This document shows, piece by piece, positions 37,422 through 49,083 of a stretch of 64,000 bases of DNA (its first letter is position 1; the number at the start of each line of letters is the position of its first letter). The stretch spans positions 682,001 to 746,000 of the forward strand of contig NC_012489.1 in NCBI RefSeq assembly GCF_000010305.1, given 5' to 3'. Source of the stretch: Gemmatimonas aurantiaca T-27 (GTDB lineage Bacteria > Gemmatimonadota > Gemmatimonadetes > Gemmatimonadales > Gemmatimonadaceae). Made by a program: the position numbers and the translations under genes. Under the pieces are notes generated by a model. It saw only the letters and a program-made list of their open reading frames with translations, made no database searches and was not told where the DNA came from.

Positions 37422-39728
37422 GTGCGTCTATCCGTCCATGACCTGACCTCTTCCATTCGCGCGATTGTGGCCCGTCGCGCAGTGGTGCTTCCGGCTGTCC
37501 TCTCGATCCTGTCGATGATCGGGTGGGCGGCTCGTCCGCTCGCCGCCCAGGATCTGTCCTGCGAGCGAGGGGACCGGGAAGTCCGCGCCCTGCGCTTTGC
37601 GGGCAACCGGGAATTTCCGGCCTCGGTGCTGGCGGCGACGGTGGCCACGATCCCGTCGTCGTTCGCCGGTCTACCGCTGGTCGGCGAGCGGCGCTGCCTG
37701 GATCCGGTGGAGTTTTCACGCGATGTGCAGCGGTTGGAGACGCTCTATCGTCGTCGCGGGTTCCCCGATGTGGCAGTGGATACGGTGGTGCGCACGGTGC
37801 GGACTGGCGTGATCGATATCACGTTCACCGTGAAAGAAGGTGAGCCGATGCGCGTGTCGGCGTTTGCGTTGCGCGGCGTGGATAGTGATCCCGAGATCGG
37901 CGTGGCCGCTCGCGACTTCCCCATGCGGGTGGGCGGTCTGTTCGATCGTGGCGCGCTGGAGGCTGGGCGTGACACGCTCGTACGCCGGTTGCGCAATCGG
38001 GGATGGCCGCAGGCGGAGGCGCTGCTGGCCTACACCACCAATACTGCACAGCGCACGGCCGATATCGAAGTGACCGTGGTGCCCGGGGCGCGGGCGCGCA
38101 TCGGACGCATCGCGCTGGACGTGGACACCAGCAATGGCCCACGTCGGGTCACCGATGCCACGGTGCATCGTGCATTGGCCCTTCGCACCGGCGACTGGTA
38201 TTCGGCGCGGGCCATCATCGATGCGCAGCGCAATCTCTACCAGACCGACGTCTTCCAGCGGGTGGATCTGCAGCCGGACAGCATTCAGCCGCCGGGTGAT
38301 ACGATCGTCAACTTGACGGCGCGTCTGGTGGAAGGTGATCGCTGGGCTGCACGCGGGGGGTTGGGGTGGGCCACGCTCGATTGTTTCCGCGCGCAGGGTA
38401 CGCTGACCGATCGCGACTTCCTCCCCATGGCGCAGCGTCTCGAATTGTCGGCGCGCCTCAGCAAGATCGGTATCGGGGATCCGCTCGATGGCGCGCCCGA
38501 TCTCTGCCAGGGGCAGGCACGATCGGATCCGTACAGCCGAACGCTCAACTACAACACTTCGATGACATTGCGGCAGCCGGTGCGGGCCAATCAGGCGCGC
38601 GTGCTGTCGCTGACGGTGTTCAGCTCGACGTTGTCCGAATACCGGGCATATCTACGCCGAACGCCCATCGGCGGAGTGATGTCGATCAGTGATCCGTTTG
38701 CGCGGAAATCCGCACCGCGCACGCCGAGCACGTTGTCATATCAGTTGGAGCTGGGGCGAACGGAGGCCGAGCCCGCGTTCTTCTGTGCCGTGTTCAATGC
38801 GTGCGACAGCGAGTTGCGCAACTTTCTGCAGCGCAACAATCGGCTGGCGGCGCTCGAGTACGCGATTACCCGCGAGCGCATGAACGATCCGCTTCGGCCC
38901 ACGCAGGGCACGCTGATGCGTGTGACCCTGCGTCATGCGAGCACATTGATCGGGTCGGATCGCACGCAGCAGTTCAATCGGGCGATTGGCGACGTCTCCT
39001 GGTACCGCATGTTGGGCAGCGCCACGATCACGGCGCATTTCAAGGCCGGTGTGGTGCAGGGCAGTGGCAGTGGTGCTGGCGTGGGCAGCTTCATTCCGCC
39101 GCAGGAACGCCTGTATGCGGGCGGACCGACGACGGTGCGCGGGTTTCGTCAGAACGAGCTTGGCCCTGCCGTCTACATCGTCAGCGCGTATGAAGAGGTG
39201 ACCGAGAACGGGCAGACGTACTATCGGGTCGGAGAAGCCACGCAAACGGAGCGCGTGGTGCCCACGGGCGGCAATACGCTGCTGGTGGGCAATCTCGAAG
39301 CGCAGTGGCCCAGTCCCATTGCGCCGCGACTGCTGCAACTGGCGGCGTTTGCGGATGCGGGTCGTCTGTGGAATCGGGGCGGCTCGGTGCGTGGGGTGTC
39401 GCTGGCGTCCGAAGGGCCGATCGTGAAAATCACGCCCGGTGCTGGTGTGCGCATCTCCTCGCCGTTTGGGGCCATTCGCATCGACTTCGGCTACAACCCG
39501 TATGACCTGCCGGCCGGTGCGGCGTACTTCAATGCACGGCCGCAGAAAGGTGTTGCGCCATTGTATTGCGTCAGCCCCGGCAATCGTCTTCGGGTCAGCG
39601 CCTCGTCGGTGCCTGAGGCGCCGGCGATTCAGGAATCGGGCGCCTGTCCGGCCGCGTTCCAGCCGGTACGACGCTCCGGCCTGCTCGGACGCCTGAATCC
39701 GAGCATCTGGATCGGGCAGGCCTTCTGA
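37422..39728 (+). CDS. Omp85-family outer-membrane assembly protein (TamA/BamA type)
   Basis: 768 residues. Signal peptide (VVLPAVLSILSMIGWAARPLAAQ), then three or more POTRA domains (VRALRFAGNREFPASVL; MRVSAFALRGVDSD; RIGRIALDVD). A 16-strand-type barrel follows with the conserved RLYAGGPTTVRGFRQNELGP segment. Omp85 proteins insert beta-barrel or autotransporter proteins into the outer membrane. The next gene is TamB-like and overlaps by one base (TGATG), so the TamA role is preferred over BamA. The start is GTG 37422; GTG 37467 gives an equally good signal peptide. Confidence 0.92.
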   Translation: MRLSVHDLTSSIRAIVARRAVVLPAVLSILSMIGWAARPLAAQDLSCERGDREVRALRFAGNREFPASVLAATVATIPSSFAGLPLVGERRCLDPVEFSRDVQRLETLYRRRGFPDVAVDTVVRTVRTGVIDITFTVKEGEPMRVSAFALRGVDSDPEIGVAARDFPMRVGGLFDRGALEAGRDTLVRRLRNRGWPQAEALLAYTTNTAQRTADIEVTVVPGARARIGRIALDVDTSNGPRRVTDATVHRALALRTGDWYSARAIIDAQRNLYQTDVFQRVDLQPDSIQPPGDTIVNLTARLVEGDRWAARGGLGWATLDCFRAQGTLTDRDFLPMAQRLELSARLSKIGIGDPLDGAPDLCQGQARSDPYSRTLNYNTSMTLRQPVRANQARVLSLTVFSSTLSEYRAYLRRTPIGGVMSISDPFARKSAPRTPSTLSYQLELGRTEAEPAFFCAVFNACDSELRNFLQRNNRLAALEYAITRERMNDPLRPTQGTLMRVTLRHASTLIGSDRTQQFNRAIGDVSWYRMLGSATITAHFKAGVVQGSGSGAGVGSFIPPQERLYAGGPTTVRGFRQNELGPAVYIVSAYEEVTENGQTYYRVGEATQTERVVPTGGNTLLVGNLEAQWPSPIAPRLLQLAAFADAGRLWNRGGSVRGVSLASEGPIVKITPGAGVRISSPFGAIRIDFGYNPYDLPAGAAYFNARPQKGVAPLYCVSPGNRLRVSASSVPEAPAIQESGACPAAFQPVRRSGLLGRLNPSIWIGQAF

Positions 39729-42700
39729 TGGCCCCGAGGCGGCGCACCATCGTACTGGGCACGGCCACCGTGCTCCTGACGCTCTTGGTGGCCGTCATCG
39801 GTGGCATCGTGGCGCTCACGCAGACGGATCGTGGACGGGCCATCATTTTGCGCGCGGTGTTGCCGGCGGCGCGTGCGGCGATTCCGGGGCGTTTGTATGT
39901 GGGCAAGATCGGCGGCACGCTGTTCACCGATATCACGATCGATTCGATCGACCTGCGCACACCCGACGGCACACCGTTTTTGAGCACGGGTCGCGTGCGG
40001 GTGACGTACGACCCGCGCGACCTGCTCGATTTCCGCGTGATCGTGCGATCGCTCGAGGTGGACCGTCCCCAGGTCACCCTCGTCGACTATGGCGACGACG
40101 ACTGGAACTGGAAGCGGGCGCTCCGCAAACGCGCGCCACGTCCGTCGATGAATCCGGGACGGCTCGGGCGCTACATCGTGGTGGACACCGCCACACTCAA
40201 CGAACTCACGTTTGTGGCCAAGCTGCCGTGGGCGCTCTCCGACACGTTGCGGGGCGCGCAGCGTGACAGCGCGCTGACCTACAATCTCACGCGCCTCGAT
40301 ATGGATGTGCTGCGTGAGGATGATCGCTACGTGAAGGTGTACCGCTTCCTGCGTGGCAACGTAGCGCTGGGCCGTTCCCGCATCGCCGATCCCGACAGTG
40401 CCGGATTGCGATTCGATGTGAAGCGTCTCGATGTGATGTGGGACTATCCTCCGATCTGGTTCAAGGATCTGAGCGGTGATGTGCGGAAGGTGGGCGACAC
40501 GCTCTGGGTGGATAGCGCAAAATTTGCCTTGCCGGGTTCTGTGGCCCGTGGTGGGGCAAAGGTGGTGTGGGGCAGCGACCTGCCGGTGCGCTACGATGTC
40601 GGGTTGCAGCTCGACACGGTGTCGATGACCGATATCGCGTGGTTGGACGAGACCATCCCGCACAGCGGTGGCGGGCGGGCCCATCTCACCATCCGCAATG
40701 ATCCGCGCAATCTGGCCATCATCGAATACATCATCCGCAACATGGATGCGAACGCCCTGCAATCACGCATTCGCGGCGATATGACCTGGGGCGTGGGCGG
40801 GCCGGTGGTGCGCCTCACGGGCGTCAATCTCGATATGCAGCCCGCGCACACGGACTTGCTGCAGTGGATGAACGGGGAACCGTTCCCCTATGACTGGAAG
40901 GGCAAGATCACCGGGAAGCTGGTCGCCAGTGGTGGCTACGTGACGGATTGGGCGGTGGAGTCGGCGACATTTGCGTTCGCCGATGAACATGTGCCCGGTG
41001 CCGTGTCTCGTGGGCGTGCGACGGGCAAGCTCAATCTCTACACGCCCGCCGAAGCCATTCTCAAAGGCGTCGAGCTCACGCTGGACACACTCGATTTCCG
41101 TACGCCCCGTTTCGTGAACCCCATGTTTGCGGAGCTGAACGGGTTTGCCCGTGGGCGGGTGCGCCTGGATTCGTTGTGGTACGACGCCTCGTTCACCGAT
41201 GCCGATATCGAGCTGGTGGACGGACCCGGGCAATCTTCGCGCTTCACCGGCAGTGGTCACTACACGCTGGTTCCGGAAGGCACATGGTTCGATGTGGACC
41301 TGCAGGCGCTGCCGTTGTCGTACACGACCTTGTCGCGCTCCTATCCCAACCTGCCACTGCGCGGTGCGGCTGTGGGGCGCATCACGGCCCGTGGCATGGC
41401 CGACAAGTTCGAGGTGCAGACGACGTTGGCCGGTGAGGGCGGCGAGTTGGCCTTCACCGGCCTGGCCGACGCCCTCGATCCCACGATCGGGGCGTTTGGC
41501 TCCTGGCGCTTGCGCGGAGCCAATCTGCAGTCGCTGTTCGGCGACAATCGGTATCCGGTCACCACCCTGTCCATGGCGGGTACGGTGCACATGGAGGGTG
41601 AGGTGCTTTCCACGATGCGCGGACCACTCAGTGCGACCGTCGATCAGTTCTCCCGCATCGCCGACGCCCGTGTCTTCGGCGGGACGGCGGCGTTCCGATT
41701 CGATTCAGGGCATGTGTTCATCGACACGCTGGCCGTGGAGAGCTCTGCGCTCCGGCTCACCGCGCGCGGCGGCCTTGGGCTCGATCAGTCCCGCCGGGAC
41801 TCGGTGCATTTCACGGTGCAGATCGATTCCCTGGGCGGACTGCGTCCCTGGTTGTCGGCCACGGGTACGGACAGTGCCCGTGCCCTCGTCCTGCCGTCTG
41901 ATACGCTGCGAGGCACGGCGGAACTCATGGGCAGTCTGTTCGGCTCCATCGACACGCTGGACACCCGTGGACTCGATGTGGATCTGCGTGCGGATATCAG
42001 TGGACTGGTGGTGGCGACCTCGCGTGCGCAGCGCGCCAATGTCGATGCACGTGTCGAAGATGTGCTGCGCGCGGCGAATGGGACCGTCATGTTCACCGCC
42101 GATTCCGCCTACGTGGCCGGTATCGATGTGTCGGCCGCGACAGCACGTTCCACGCTGCGTGGAGGGCTCGCGGATCGATTCACGGTCGCCATGCGGACGC
42201 CGTCGGAATCGCGTGTGGTGATCGGTGGCGGTGTCTCGCGGCGGGGCGATTCCACCGAAGTGCGCCTGGACACGCTCACCATTCGCGTGGACAGCGGCTT
42301 TGCCCGTCCCCGTGGTTTTTCACTGGTCACGCCGGCGACGCTGCGCTTGATGCCGGGTTCACTGGGGGCACTGGATTCGCTCGTGCTACAGCACACCGAC
42401 ACCGGACGCATTGCGCTGCACGGTGCGGTCGCCGCGGGCGGTGTGGTGGAGGGGACAGTGAACGCGGATCGTGTGCCACTGGGCGACTTTGGCCGTCTGC
42501 TGCGCACCAATGCCATCACGCGCGGCACGGCCGATCTGCAACTGGCCGTGAGCGGCACCAAAGAACGTCCACGACTCGACGGTACCGTGGGGCTGCGCGA
42601 TGCGGTTGTCGGGCGGGTGCGATTTGGCGATCTCAGCGCACGTGCGCACTACGATTCGCTGCGCCTGATGTTGGCCGGCGCGCTGCGGGTGGACGGGGCA

Positions 42701-44290
42701 CCCACCCTGCAGGCCACCGCCTCGCTGCCACTCGACCTGGCGCTCGTCTCCAGTCGTCAGCGTCGCCTCGATGAGCCCCTGTCCGGGCGCATCGTCAGCG
42801 AACGCACCAATCTCGCCTTGCTGGAATCGCTGTTTCCCGATGTCACACATGCCGCGGGCACACTCGAGACGGATGTGCAACTCACCGGCACCTGGGACCG
42901 TCCACGCCTGCGCGGCCAACTCCGGGTGGACAGTGCGGCGCTCACGCTTGCCAACCTCGGCATCCGTCTCGAACAGGCCTATGCTGATGTCGGCCTGGCT
43001 GGAGACAGCGTGCTCATTCGTCGTTTTGGGGCACGCAGCGGTACGGCCAACGACTCGCTGGGCGTCTCGGGACTCATCGGCATCACCGAGATCGCGCGTC
43101 CGTCGTTCGAACTCCGATTGGCAGCCAACAATTTCCTGGCCATCGACAAACCTCGCACGGCGTCGCTCACCATCTCCACGCCCATTCCGATCTCGCTGTC
43201 GGGCAACACCGATGCGCCCCTCGTGCGTGGTGCGGTGCGTATCGATCGTGGACGCGTCTACATCAGTCAGCTCGCTCAACGGCGCGCGCTGGATCTCAAT
43301 GACAATTTCGATGTCATCGACACCACGCGATTTGGCGTGAATGGGCTGCTGCCCTCGGCGCCCAACGCGCTGATGCAGAATCTGCAACTCGAGGACGTGC
43401 GCATTGGGATCGGTGACGATGTCTGGCTGCGCTCACCTGAAGCCAATCTCAAGTTGGGCGGCCAGTTGCGAGTGACCCGGTCGGTGTCGCGGGAAGGGCG
43501 TGGGACACGTTTGGCGCTGGCCGACTCACTCACTGTCGATCGTGGTACCTATCAGCTCAATCTCGGCATCGCGCGTCCCGGGTTCGAGGTGGAACGTGGT
43601 CTGGTGCGGTTTTTTGGCGATCCTGATCTGGAACCCTCGCTCGATATCACGGCGCTGCACACCGTGCGCGAGACACGCGCCAATTCCAATCGACAGGATG
43701 TGCGCATCCGCGTGAACATCGGCGGCACGATCAACCGGCCCACGTTGGCGCTCGTCAGCGCGGACAATCCGCCGCTCCCCGAGAGCGACATGCTGAGTTA
43801 TCTGGTGACCGGCGAGCCGGCGTATGCGCTGCTCGGAACGCCGTATGCGGAACAGGGCGCCACGTTGGCCCTGCGCCTGGCCGGGTCCTATCTGTCGAGT
43901 CGTCTGGCGGGCGGGCGCTTCGATGTGGTGCAGGTGGAGCCGACGGCGCTCAGCCCGGGTGATGCACAAAACCTGCGCGCGAATGGTCTCGGCATCCTCG
44001 CCTCCACCCGCGTGGGTGTGGGCGGGCAGGTCGCGCGAAACACCTATCTCACATTCAGCACCGGTCTGTGCGGGCTGGCACCGCAGACCGGTAGCGGCGA
44101 CGCGCTGTCGTTGTTTGCCGAAGGGCTGGGTGTGAAAGTGGAACGCCGCTTCGATCGAGGCATGAGCGTGGCGCTGGGTCTGGAACCCGCGTCCAGTGCG
44201 CAAGCCTGTGGACGACTGGGCATCAGTCGTACCTTTCAGCAGACTCCTCCCCAGATCGGTATCGACTTCTTCCGATACTGGACGTTCTGA
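39728..44290 (+). CDS. tamB: TamB-like translocation and assembly protein
   Basis: 1520 residues. A single N-terminal membrane anchor (TIVLGTATVLLTLLVAVIGGIVAL) is followed by a very long region of beta-rich repeats of the AsmA/TamB superfamily. The C-terminal DUF490 domain begins near 1130 with LTISTPIPISLSGNTDAP, followed by RGRVYISQL and LPESDMLSYLVTG. TamB spans the periplasm from the inner membrane to TamA and is linked to outer-membrane protein insertion and phospholipid transport. It is translationally coupled to the upstream Omp85 gene. Confidence 0.93.
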   Translation: MAPRRRTIVLGTATVLLTLLVAVIGGIVALTQTDRGRAIILRAVLPAARAAIPGRLYVGKIGGTLFTDITIDSIDLRTPDGTPFLSTGRVRVTYDPRDLLDFRVIVRSLEVDRPQVTLVDYGDDDWNWKRALRKRAPRPSMNPGRLGRYIVVDTATLNELTFVAKLPWALSDTLRGAQRDSALTYNLTRLDMDVLREDDRYVKVYRFLRGNVALGRSRIADPDSAGLRFDVKRLDVMWDYPPIWFKDLSGDVRKVGDTLWVDSAKFALPGSVARGGAKVVWGSDLPVRYDVGLQLDTVSMTDIAWLDETIPHSGGGRAHLTIRNDPRNLAIIEYIIRNMDANALQSRIRGDMTWGVGGPVVRLTGVNLDMQPAHTDLLQWMNGEPFPYDWKGKITGKLVASGGYVTDWAVESATFAFADEHVPGAVSRGRATGKLNLYTPAEAILKGVELTLDTLDFRTPRFVNPMFAELNGFARGRVRLDSLWYDASFTDADIELVDGPGQSSRFTGSGHYTLVPEGTWFDVDLQALPLSYTTLSRSYPNLPLRGAAVGRITARGMADKFEVQTTLAGEGGELAFTGLADALDPTIGAFGSWRLRGANLQSLFGDNRYPVTTLSMAGTVHMEGEVLSTMRGPLSATVDQFSRIADARVFGGTAAFRFDSGHVFIDTLAVESSALRLTARGGLGLDQSRRDSVHFTVQIDSLGGLRPWLSATGTDSARALVLPSDTLRGTAELMGSLFGSIDTLDTRGLDVDLRADISGLVVATSRAQRANVDARVEDVLRAANGTVMFTADSAYVAGIDVSAATARSTLRGGLADRFTVAMRTPSESRVVIGGGVSRRGDSTEVRLDTLTIRVDSGFARPRGFSLVTPATLRLMPGSLGALDSLVLQHTDTGRIALHGAVAAGGVVEGTVNADRVPLGDFGRLLRTNAITRGTADLQLAVSGTKERPRLDGTVGLRDAVVGRVRFGDLSARAHYDSLRLMLAGALRVDGAPTLQATASLPLDLALVSSRQRRLDEPLSGRIVSERTNLALLESLFPDVTHAAGTLETDVQLTGTWDRPRLRGQLRVDSAALTLANLGIRLEQAYADVGLAGDSVLIRRFGARSGTANDSLGVSGLIGITEIARPSFELRLAANNFLAIDKPRTASLTISTPIPISLSGNTDAPLVRGAVRIDRGRVYISQLAQRRALDLNDNFDVIDTTRFGVNGLLPSAPNALMQNLQLEDVRIGIGDDVWLRSPEANLKLGGQLRVTRSVSREGRGTRLALADSLTVDRGTYQLNLGIARPGFEVERGLVRFFGDPDLEPSLDITALHTVRETRANSNRQDVRIRVNIGGTINRPTLALVSADNPPLPESDMLSYLVTGEPAYALLGTPYAEQGATLALRLAGSYLSSRLAGGRFDVVQVEPTALSPGDAQNLRANGLGILASTRVGVGGQVARNTYLTFSTGLCGLAPQTGSGDALSLFAEGLGVKVERRFDRGMSVALGLEPASSAQACGRLGISRTFQQTPPQIGIDFFRYWTF

Positions 44291-44367
44291 CGGTTCCGAC
44301 TCACGGCGGTGTGCCGTGGGGGCTACGTTGTATCCCCCGCGTGTCGTCGCTCGTCATCCCATATCCC

Positions 44368-47300
44368 ATGCACTCCTCCGCTGCCGCTGCCCGGTCGACG
44401 ACGCTGTCGACTACCGAGGTCCTCGTCGCCATCGATGGCGCCGAGAGCACCGACGCACGGCTTCAGGTGGCGGCCGATGCTTTGCACGGGCAGTTCGGCT
44501 TCGATCGTGTCATCATCTCGCTGCGCGACGCATCACTGAATCCGATCAGCGGCGGCGTGGCGGGCGGTCCCGAAAGTGCTACGGGGATCTCACTGCCGCA
44601 GACTCCGTTGCCTGGCGCTGTCTGGCGACGCCGATTGCCGCACCTCGATCGATTTCGGGTGGGTGATCTGTATTTCCTCGATGGCAGCGATGGCTGGGTG
44701 TCCCGCGAGTTTTTTGGTTCGGAGCCCACAGCAGATCGTCAGGACGCCCAATGGTTGGCCACTGATCTGATCGTCGGGGTGCTGCGGGGGGCGCGGCAGG
44801 AGATTCTGGGGTTCGTCAAGCTGGCCGGTGCGCGGGATGGTCAGCGGCCGGATGCGGCACGCCTGCGTGAGATCGAAACGGTGGTGCGCCACCTGTCGGC
44901 GCGCGTGGCCTTCGATGCGCTACAGGCCCTCGCCGAGCAACGTCACGAGCGTTTGCAACTGCTGCAGGAGGCGGGCACGTCGCTCACGCGATCGCTCGAC
45001 GAGCAGGAGATCATGCGCGAGCTGGCGCGCCAGGCACAACGTGCCGTGCGGTGCGATGGTGTGGTGGTACTGGTGCCCGATCTCCACAACGACATCCTCA
45101 CCACGAGCCTGCGTATCGTGCGCGGTGCCGAACGTCCACGCGGTGTGATGCGGTTGGGAGAGGGACTGGTGGCCGAAGTGGCGCGCACCGGCCGACCGGT
45201 TCGGGTGGGTGATCGAGACGCGGATCGGGCACGTGAGAAAGCCGGTCTGGTGCCCCCGCTGTCGCTGCACGATGTCATCGGCGAATCGGATGCGGCCACG
45301 TCGGTGGTAGCGGTGCCGATGCGTGTGGGGATCCGGCTGATCGGTGTGTTGGCGGTGCATTCCACCAATGCCGATCTGTACACCGCGGAAGACGAAGAAG
45401 TCCTGGCCACGATGGCGTCGCAGGCCGCTACGGCATTGGCGAATGCGCGACGGTATGCGGAGAGTGAACGTGAGCGGCGCACCACGGAAGCGCTGGCCGA
45501 CGTGGCCCGTGCGGTTGGTGAATCGCTGCGACTGGGTGAGGTGTTGCGTCTCATCCTCCGGCACTCGGTGTCGTTGCTTGGTGTGGAAGGGGCCTGCATC
45601 GCGCTGCGCACCGGTGACTACCTGCACATCGTCGCGGCAGCCGGCACCGCGGATGTGCTCAGTGGGGTGCACCTGCCGATCAGCTCGAGTTTGTTGGGCC
45701 GCTGCGTGCAGGGCAACGAGCTCGTCGTGCTCAATGAAATGAGCAACGAGACCCCGATTACGCGCACGGTGCAGCAATTGGCTCGCATCCAGCGCGTTGT
45801 CATGGCCCCTCTGGGCACGGGCCGGGGGACCATTGGCGCCATCACCGTCATGAACCGCGAACGGCCCTTCGACCAGGACGATGCGAAGGTCTTGCAGCGG
45901 CTTGCCGATCAGGTGGCCGTGGCGATCGACAATGCGCGGCTGTTCGAAGAGGTGGAGAAGGCCACGCGTGAGTGGAAGTTGGCGTTCGACAGCACAGCCA
46001 GTGGTATCGTGGTGCTCGAAGAATCCCTCACCGTGAGCCGTTGTAACTCGCGCGCTGCGGAGTTGTGTGGCACCACCATCCCCGGATTGCTGGGACGGCG
46101 CTTTCGTGATGTGCTGTTGTCCTCGACGGACGGGCCGGAAGCCACCACGATCGATGCATCGATCGCCCGCGCGATGCGCGATGGTGCCGCCGTGCGCGAG
46201 ACGATTCGGGATCATGCGCGCGGGCGTCTGCTGTCGGTGCTCATCAGCGCCCATCCCAGCGGTGGTTGTGTCATCACATTCGACGATGTCACCGATACGG
46301 CGCGACTGGCCGAACAGCACCGCAATGTGCTCGAGACGGTGTCCGACGCCATTGTCATCACCGACCTGAATGGTCAGGTCACGTTCGCCAACCCCGCCGC
46401 CAAGACGCTGTTTCAGCGCCGGGATCTGAGCGCCGTGCCCGCGAGCGATATGATCGCACCAGATTGGCTGGCGACGGTCACCGCCAATGAGGTCGCGGTG
46501 CGTCAGGGCGAGCGGGTCCGGTACGAGTGCGAAGTGTTGCGCGCCGATGGCTCGCGGCGCGTGGTGCAGGTGAGCTCGACACCGCTGGTGGAGCTCGGTG
46601 TCATCCGTGGTACGGTGGCCTGTTTGCGGGACATCACCGAACAACGCGCCGATGCACTCGCCCGCGAGCACTCCGAAGTGCTGTACTCCCGGCTCGTGGA
46701 CAGCGCGAGCGACGCGATCTTCACGGTTGATCTCGAAGGGCGTTTCACATCGGTGAATCAGTGCCTGCTCGACGAAGCCGGGCTGCGTCGAGATCAGGTG
46801 ATCGGCACACATTTCAGCACGATGGTCGATGCGGTCGATCATCCGCAGGCGATGCAGGCGATGCGGGCCACTCTGAGCGGGCAGCGTCTTCGTCTGCATA
46901 TTCGCTGCCTCAGCTTCACGGGGCCACGCATGACGATGGTCACCTCGGCACCGATTCACGCGTCGGGGCAGGTGGTGGGCGCGCTCGCGATTGTTCGTGA
47001 TGTCACCAATGACGAGATCCAGCGCGAAGCCCAGTTGCAGCAGGCACGTCTGGCGGCCGTGGGCCAGTCGCTCGGCCGGGTGGCCAACGAGTTGAACAAT
47101 CCCCTGGCCAGTCTGCTGGCAGTGGCCGAACTGCACGTCACGTCCACCCAACTGGTCGAGGACGATCGTCGCGCGATGCAGCAGATGGTGGAGGAAGCGC
47201 GCCGTGCTTCCCGCATCGTGAATCAGTTGCTCGACACCACCGGTGAAGCACCGCAGATCGGTGGACGGCGTTCGGCACTCGATCTGACCACGGTGTTGCG

Positions 47301-48255
47301 CCGTGCCCTCGATCTGTTCAGTCACAGCTTCAAGGCGCAGCACATCGGCGTGTCTACCATGCTCGAAGCCGATTTGCCGGCGGTGCACGGCGATCCGCTG
47401 CAACTCCAGCAGGTCGTGTCGAATCTGCTCACGAACGCGGAGCAGGCCCTGTCGGAAAACAGTGGCGACCGGGTACTGGAACTCGAAGCCCGTGCGGATG
47501 GTGAGACGGTGTTGCTCACGGTTCGGGACAACGGCCCCGGTATCCTGCCCCAGCATCTGCGTCGTGTGGTGGAGCCCATGTTCACCACCCGTTCCGCACG
47601 GGGGCAGCGAGGACTGGGCCTGACGATCGCCCATGCCATCGTGCGCGATCATGGTGGTCAGCTCGATATCGTCTCGCGATTCGGTGAAGGGGTCACGGCG
47701 GTGGTACGCCTCCCCGTGGCCGGCGCGCCCGCATTGGCCGATCGCCGTCTGACCCCTCGCAGCTCGGAGGCGGTCAGTGCGATCACGGAGGCATTGGCCA
47801 CGCCGCGAATGTCGCACTCCACGCCCATCACCATGCCGCCGCCGGCCCCGCTGGCGCCGGCTATCGCGACGGAGACGGGTGTCTCATACACGATCTTGCT
47901 GCTCGAGGATGAGGCCACGTTGCGGTCGGCCATCAGTCGCTTCCTGCGCACGTTGGGATATGAGGTAGATGTCGCGGAAGACGGTCGTACAGCACTCGAT
48001 GCCCTGCACGCCCGCAGCTACGACCTCATCCTGCTCGACTTGCGAATGCAGGGCATCACCGGTGAGGACGTGTACGAGACCATGATCGATGCCTATCCTG
48101 ATCAGGCGGCGCGCGTGGTGTTCATGACCGGCGACATGCACAGCGATCATGCTGCGCGTTTTGTGCGTCAGACCGGACGGCCCGTGCTGGCGAAGCCCTT
48201 CACGCTGACGGAGCTCGATGCCCGCCTCCGGCAGATTCTCGGGGACGCGCCGTAG
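44368..48255 (+). CDS. Hybrid sensor kinase (GAF/PAS-HATPase-REC) with Asn in place of the phospho-His
   Basis: About 1295 residues, no membrane segment. Order: three GAF-like domains (about 10-190, 200-385, 395-530), three PAS domains (about 540-980 in total), a HisKA-like dimerisation part, HATPase and a C-terminal receiver. The H-box reads VANELNNPLASLL: Asn907 (AAC at 47086-47088) replaces the phospho-accepting His of VAHELNNPL. The ATPase boxes look intact (LLTNAEQAL, DNGPGI, MFTTRSA, RGLGLTIA). The receiver keeps Asp1224 (LILLDLRM), TGD and AKPF. ATG 44368 is used; an in-frame GTG at 44311 is possible. Soluble, probably senses redox or a small ligand; kinase activity is doubtful. Confidence 0.9.
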   Translation: MHSSAAAARSTTLSTTEVLVAIDGAESTDARLQVAADALHGQFGFDRVIISLRDASLNPISGGVAGGPESATGISLPQTPLPGAVWRRRLPHLDRFRVGDLYFLDGSDGWVSREFFGSEPTADRQDAQWLATDLIVGVLRGARQEILGFVKLAGARDGQRPDAARLREIETVVRHLSARVAFDALQALAEQRHERLQLLQEAGTSLTRSLDEQEIMRELARQAQRAVRCDGVVVLVPDLHNDILTTSLRIVRGAERPRGVMRLGEGLVAEVARTGRPVRVGDRDADRAREKAGLVPPLSLHDVIGESDAATSVVAVPMRVGIRLIGVLAVHSTNADLYTAEDEEVLATMASQAATALANARRYAESERERRTTEALADVARAVGESLRLGEVLRLILRHSVSLLGVEGACIALRTGDYLHIVAAAGTADVLSGVHLPISSSLLGRCVQGNELVVLNEMSNETPITRTVQQLARIQRVVMAPLGTGRGTIGAITVMNRERPFDQDDAKVLQRLADQVAVAIDNARLFEEVEKATREWKLAFDSTASGIVVLEESLTVSRCNSRAAELCGTTIPGLLGRRFRDVLLSSTDGPEATTIDASIARAMRDGAAVRETIRDHARGRLLSVLISAHPSGGCVITFDDVTDTARLAEQHRNVLETVSDAIVITDLNGQVTFANPAAKTLFQRRDLSAVPASDMIAPDWLATVTANEVAVRQGERVRYECEVLRADGSRRVVQVSSTPLVELGVIRGTVACLRDITEQRADALAREHSEVLYSRLVDSASDAIFTVDLEGRFTSVNQCLLDEAGLRRDQVIGTHFSTMVDAVDHPQAMQAMRATLSGQRLRLHIRCLSFTGPRMTMVTSAPIHASGQVVGALAIVRDVTNDEIQREAQLQQARLAAVGQSLGRVANELNNPLASLLAVAELHVTSTQLVEDDRRAMQQMVEEARRASRIVNQLLDTTGEAPQIGGRRSALDLTTVLRRALDLFSHSFKAQHIGVSTMLEADLPAVHGDPLQLQQVVSNLLTNAEQALSENSGDRVLELEARADGETVLLTVRDNGPGILPQHLRRVVEPMFTTRSARGQRGLGLTIAHAIVRDHGGQLDIVSRFGEGVTAVVRLPVAGAPALADRRLTPRSSEAVSAITEALATPRMSHSTPITMPPPAPLAPAIATETGVSYTILLLEDEATLRSAISRFLRTLGYEVDVAEDGRTALDALHARSYDLILLDLRMQGITGEDVYETMIDAYPDQAARVVFMTGDMHSDHAARFVRQTGRPVLAKPFTLTELDARLRQILGDAP

Positions 48256-48306: not shown

Positions 48307-49083
48307 ATGAACACATCGAGCCAACCTGCAACCGATCGGCGCACCGTGCGTGCGGCCATTGCCCCGCTGCTTGGCGAGCCACGCATTTCCACGGCGCTGA
48401 CATCGCAGTTGTTGGCCGGCGAGGTCGTGGAGGTGATCGATGGGCGCGGCGATTGGGTGCAGGTGCGCGGTATCGATGGCTACGAAGGATGGACACATGT
48501 CGGCTATCTCACGCCCAGCCAGGGCGGTGAAGCGGACTGGCGGTGGTCACTCGGATGTGTGGTTCGCGAGGCTCAAGGGGTGGTGCATGCGTTGCCACTG
48601 GGCGCACGTCTCGCGCCGTCCACCGATGTGCTGGAGGGGTTGGCGATACCGGCCGATGCCCGTGCGCCACATTTCCTGATGAATGGTGCGGCCATTGCTG
48701 CCAGCGCCGCTGCCTTGTTCAGTGGAGCCAGCTACCTGTGGGGTGGCGTGACGCCTTGGGGCGTGGACTGCTCGGGGCTGATGCAACGCATTGCCCTGTT
48801 GCACGGTGTCACGTTGCCGCGCGATGCGTGGCAACAGGCCCTGGCCACGGATGCCGTGACCGAGGATGCCGCTGCAGCCCATGCCCCGTCAGATCTGTTG
48901 TTCTTCTCGGATCGTGACGACCGGCGCGTCACCCATGTGGGGATGGCCTTGGGTGACGGTCGTATGGTGCACAGTGCCCTGACACGGGGCGGTGTAACCA
49001 TCGAACGCCTCGACGCGGACGATCCATATGTGGCGCGGCTCCGTACGCAGTGCACGGGTGTGCATCGCCTTCGTATCCCCTGA
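48307..49083 (+). CDS. NlpC/P60 endopeptidase with SH3 domains, YkfC-like
   Basis: 258 residues, no signal peptide. The N-terminal SH3-like domains (about 15-75 and 80-115) contain GDWVQVRGIDGYEGWTHVGYL. The NlpC/P60 domain has YLWGGVTPWGVDCSG with the catalytic Cys (about 157) and the catalytic His in RRVTHVGMALGDGRMVHS. This domain order and the cytoplasmic location match YkfC-type gamma-D-glutamyl-L-diamino-acid peptidases, which recycle cell-wall peptides. No dipeptide epimerase gene is nearby. It lies 51 bases after the kinase gene; operon membership is uncertain. Confidence 0.88.
   Translation: MNTSSQPATDRRTVRAAIAPLLGEPRISTALTSQLLAGEVVEVIDGRGDWVQVRGIDGYEGWTHVGYLTPSQGGEADWRWSLGCVVREAQGVVHALPLGARLAPSTDVLEGLAIPADARAPHFLMNGAAIAASAAALFSGASYLWGGVTPWGVDCSGLMQRIALLHGVTLPRDAWQQALATDAVTEDAAAAHAPSDLLFFSDRDDRRVTHVGMALGDGRMVHSALTRGGVTIERLDADDPYVARLRTQCTGVHRLRIP

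Follow-up and report, generated by a model that had tools for sequence, protein, structure and literature searches.

What can a histidine kinase module still do when the residue expected to accept the phosphoryl group is not a histidine? This question is raised by a gene at positions 44368-48255 of the window, that is, the whole stretch of 64,000 nucleotides from Gemmatimonas aurantiaca T-27 that was analysed here, in a genome consisting of a single contig of 4,636,964 bp. The gene encodes a hybrid pseudo-histidine kinase with Asn at the phospho-acceptor position. We have mainly asked whether the Asn is shared by relatives, whether the kinase module is still under selection, and what function is compatible with both. 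Coordinates are those of the window, and all features lie on its forward strand.

Domain layout and gene neighbourhood

Translation and Pfam search give a soluble protein of 1295 amino acids, in which no transmembrane-like stretch was found, with the domain order GAF-GAF-GAF-PAS-PAS-PAS-DHp-CA-REC. Residues are numbered from the ATG at 44368; an alternative in-frame GTG start is possible upstream, at 44311. Two GAF stretches, GAF2 (44995-45438; PF13185/PF01590) and GAF3 (45520-45957, approximate limits), and three PAS stretches, PAS1 (45988-46305; PF12860), PAS2 (46312-46635; PF00989/PF13188) and PAS3 (46696-47010; PF08448/PF13426), were assigned by Pfam. GAF1 (44425-44922; residues about 20-185) escaped this search. 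Because its AlphaFold model (pLDDT 90) matches GAF and phytochrome-GAF structures in Foldseek, the three GAF and three PAS domains counted in a preliminary description of this DNA hold.

The C-terminal half is composed of the DHp (HisKA) domain (47020-47253; PF00512, 31.4 bits against a cut-off of 26.9), modelled as two long helices, the CA (HATPase_c) domain (47389-47721), an interdomain linker (47722-47886) and the receiver, REC (Response_reg; 47893-48228); all three domains exceed their Pfam cut-offs. The predicted DHp-CA-REC structure is an ordinary histidine kinase fold (mean pLDDT 83), the top PDB neighbours of which are ShkA, ZraS and HK853, and DivL is found among the sequence matches, with 4q20 as the profile match in PDB. 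By Pfam and structure model, therefore, the two-helix DHp and the CA of an active HisKA kinase are present, and what is missing is the acceptor His. The H-box in the translation, ...LAAVGQSLGRVANELNNPLASLL..., reads VANELNNPL, and the AAC codon at 47086-47088 is residue 907, exactly as had been described. The adjoining E908 and N911 of the E-x-x-N phosphatase motif are kept. The statement that the ATPase boxes are intact is correct for the N box (N1023), G1 (D1054-x-G-x-G) and the GLGL of G2 (1082-1085) and has to be modified for the first Gly of G2, residue 1080, which is altered. The receiver Asp is intact as claimed, and D1181, D1224, T1254 and K1276 are invariant in 24 of 24 Gemmatimonas orthologs, as befits a hybrid histidine kinase.

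Upstream of the gene lie an Omp85/POTRA protein, TamA-like (37422-39728), which overlaps the tamB start, and TamB (39728-44290). The gene next downstream, in Gemmatimonas as in its sister genera, encodes an SH3-NlpC/P60 hydrolase (48307-49083). The association with TamB is kept across the family, since most matches in its other genera also have a TamB-like sequence just upstream. The gene order tamA-tamB-sensor-NlpC/P60 (37422-49083) suggests a tie between the GAF-PAS sensor and the cell envelope. No cognate response regulator adjoins the gene.

Conservation of the asparagine and selection on the kinase module

The gene is present in 28 of the 30 genomes of the genus, the window's own included. 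When the alignment of relatives proposed in the preliminary description was run, Asn was found at the acceptor site in all 24 Gemmatimonas orthologs with an alignable DHp (identity 52-68%). The refuting result named in that description, His in close relatives, did not turn up; His was seen only outside the genus, in 13 of 13 examined orthologs from other genera of the family. Both Asn codons are used (AAC in 16 orthologs and AAT in eight), and therefore silent changes have happened while Asn was retained. Within the window's genome, His occupies the site in 44 of 45 alignable HisKA domains, a count from which six weak, non-alignable HisKA matches were left out, and the sole exception is the Asn907 protein. 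In a survey of bacterial HisKA domains, 0.9% were without the acceptor His (PMC12632262).

In 395 genomes of the phylum, scanned by pattern, the Asn H-box turned up in this genus (g1) alone. The pattern [V/A]ANExNNP, which is blind to other H-box types, was searched in about 85,000 species genomes, and its histidine kinase-like contexts were only Gemmatimonas-type genes and one unrelated small Campylobacterota protein. The small soluble DHp-CA proteins of Sulfuricurvum, Sulfurimonas and relatives represent an unrelated natural His-to-Asn change (SRFLSLVANELNNPMTALLG), and the G1 box of these proteins (L072 3707, L083, L093, L114 2082, L126) is degraded too. One record titled Candidatus Kuenenia stuttgartiensis (L146) carries a Gemmatimonas-type Asn gene, whose ORF length (1309 aa) and H-box match those of G029; this is a misnamed or contaminated assembly.

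The ratio dN/dS, calculated by the Nei-Gojobori method and summed over six independent pairs sharing no sequence, was 0.12 for DHp, 0.24 for CA and 0.18 for REC, compared with 0.10-0.13 for GAF and 0.09-0.15 for PAS. The linker, which served as an internal control, gave a near-neutral 0.83, and the method therefore picks up near-neutral drift. DHp, CA and REC are thus under purifying selection, with values near those of the sensor domains and far below that of the linker. E908, N911 and the N, D and G residues and GLGL glycines of CA are invariant in 24 of 24 Asn orthologs, and no other conserved His was found in DHp across the Asn clade. With the acceptor missing, no substitute His, the change fixed genus-wide, and both fold and selection retained, the protein is best read as a pseudo-histidine kinase, and the pseudokinase reading offered earlier is supported.

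Of the 24 Asn orthologs, 21 have H, N, Q or R at the first Gly position of G2, and 11 of the 13 His orthologs keep the Gly. For comparable GAF identity, CA has diverged more among the Asn orthologs than among those with His; this comparison is limited because the His set is deeply divergent. Faster CA divergence and the replaced Gly point to partial relaxation of the kinase module.

Loss of the module in relatives

In the sister genus (g10; bootstrap/SH-aLRT 100/100), the four orthologs recovered all retain GAF1-3, followed by between one and three PAS domains, and end there. Since an NlpC/P60 gene starts 16 and 28 bp after the shortened gene in two of these genomes, the gene end is not a contig break. 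In one g10 genome, an ORF resembling P1-family peptidases by eye (L033 4478-5545) lies between the shortened sensor and the NlpC gene. The GAF domains of the g10 orthologs have a dN/dS of about 0.18-0.27. Retention of the GAF-PAS sensor in a sister genus that has lost DHp-CA-REC at the same locus is new and provides the strongest clue, one that was out of reach of the preliminary description. The possibility that the kinase half had moved elsewhere in genomes with the shortened gene was rejected, because the best matches show 30-38% identity, the level of general paralogs.

Losses are also seen within Gemmatimonas: the gene stops after PAS1 in G010 and after PAS2 in G028; in G024 DHp is gone, the frame breaks and the receiver Asp is changed; and in G006 stops are found in the gene, with CA and REC absent. 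Because these four assemblies are fragmented and probably metagenomic, single cases may be errors; the tree requires at least four changes to explain the losses. The output has thus been silenced and repeatedly discarded, in the sister genus and four Gemmatimonas lineages, while most species keep the module. On the next branch after g10 (L043, L044) His is present. Since g10 is without DHp, loss of the His may predate or postdate the g10 split.

Decay takes other forms in His-bearing orthologs. In L043 (G072), His is kept, CA is degraded with the F box and G2 lost, and the receiver is not clear; in L036, L038 and L046, the receiver has lost key residues. As judged from these sequences, the two ends of the phosphorelay decay independently from genus to genus.

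Possible roles and comparison with known systems

We regard the protein as a pseudo-histidine kinase, DivL-like in principle, and consider the chances about even that it works as a sensor-controlled dimer acting on receivers without phosphate donation. A ligand or redox state sensed by the three GAF and three PAS domains would shift the conformation of the DHp dimer, which would no longer autophosphorylate because Asn takes the place of the acceptor His. The DHp-CA core would probably bind ATP and probably still dock a receiver, its own REC included. Signalling through the receiver or an ATP-bound conformation, as proposed earlier, would fit the retained ATP and receiver residues. Binding of ATP may be weak, since CA shows the weakest constraint of the catalytic domains and 21 of 24 orthologs no longer have the first Gly of G2. 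Since the receiver is intact, its phosphoryl group would have to come from elsewhere, either from another kinase or from a small phosphodonor. The core might act on receivers by lowering their phosphorylation, a phosphatase role that the kept E-x-x-N motif permits, or by phospho-dependent binding or sequestration. In HisKA phosphatase activity, His contributes and is not strictly required (PMC12632262; PMC5727384). The phosphatase step is a guess, because H260A diminishes the phosphatase activity of HK853 (PMC5727384) and DivL regulates without kinase or phosphatase activity (PMC4211667). The module has been lost from the sister genus and from several Gemmatimonas and so has no essential role; in lineages where the sensor persists alone, its output is dispensable.

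The main rival explanation assigns the retained job, e.g., binding of a partner or ligand, to the GAF-PAS array, with DHp-CA-REC mainly a fading dimerisation leftover. The genes of four g10 species that end after PAS under low GAF dN/dS, the truncated (G010, G028) or decaying (G006, G024) modules with no relocated copy found, and the faster divergence of CA relative to GAF in the Asn clade all speak for it. It accounts for the module losses but not for CA and REC catalytic residues that are invariant in 24 species, and a vestigial DHp would drift like the linker instead of having a dN/dS as low as the sensor; we therefore think it rather doubtful. A heterodimer with a normal kinase, also proposed earlier, in which CA would phosphorylate the DHp His of the other kinase in trans or the protein would block that kinase in the manner of RetS and GacS, is distinctly less probable and found no specific support. 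The locus has no linked partner, the best paralogs are just about 34% identical, and pairing between DHp domains usually requires that they be closely alike. In its favour, the CA residues are intact and the genome has His-bearing kinases with similar H-boxes, such as a GAF-PAS-HK-REC paralog (G000:C1:239631-241871; 34% identity). For the laboratory NRII H139N protein, complementation in trans is said to be possible. A described precedent for blocking is RetS, which blocks GacS autophosphorylation (PMC4866733).

A true kinase retained through autophosphorylation on another residue is very improbable: unusual acceptors occur in principle among other kinases, but the DHp of the Asn clade contains no conserved His. 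Asn itself is no stable phosphoryl carrier. Sequencing error or recent mutation as the source of Asn907 is ruled out by its presence in 24 independent orthologs. An error or pseudogene in this strain only has practically no likelihood; no support for it was found, though stops or frameshifts occur in a few orthologs from MAGs, and the same residue in 24 independent genomes, an open frame of 1386 codons and low dN/dS stand against it.

Returning to the DivL-like pseudokinase, we tentatively arrange the orthologs as a stepwise loss of output at one locus, from an active hybrid kinase in the outgroup genera, through a silenced but selected module in Gemmatimonas, to a deleted module with a selected sensor in the sister genus; the middle stage might be a sensor-gated receiver phosphatase or a reader of phosphorylated receivers. 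Pseudo-histidine kinases are already known, and what is new is that His-bearing, silenced and kinase-less orthologs form such a graded series at a single locus. Few HisKA proteins without the acceptor His have been studied. Since the series shares one locus in related, partly cultivable bacteria, the role of a dead kinase module, and that of a sensor without it, become directly addressable.

By sequence and fold, the nearest DHp-CA domains are those of ZraS/AtoS-type HisKA sensor kinases, which, unlike the Asn907 protein, have His and are active. The identical His-to-Asn change in NRII/NtrB, H139N, is engineered whereas Asn907 is natural, and it reportedly turns a kinase/phosphatase into a phosphatase; our literature search, restricted in extent, found no paper on H139N. 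In plant phytochromes (the histidine kinase-related domain, HKRD) and subfamily II ethylene receptors, GAF/PAS sensors feed a degenerate histidine kinase module; these are eukaryotic, with several boxes degenerate, and serve as leads only for the shared layout. CCNA_03265 of Caulobacter is a hybrid histidine kinase without the conserved His and with the receiver Asp kept, for which the authors leave a nearby His open (PMC11481889); it is likened to the Asn907 protein, with its dead DHp and intact receiver Asp, by architecture. DivL of Caulobacter, whose partner is DivK, also combines a PAS array with DHp-CA, has a conserved non-His acceptor residue and keeps the other boxes. It differs in having Tyr at the acceptor site (Tyr or Ala among DivL proteins, against Asn907) and in lacking both GAF and the C-terminal receiver, and DivL is kept across Alphaproteobacteria, whereas the module at the Gemmatimonas locus has been lost repeatedly.
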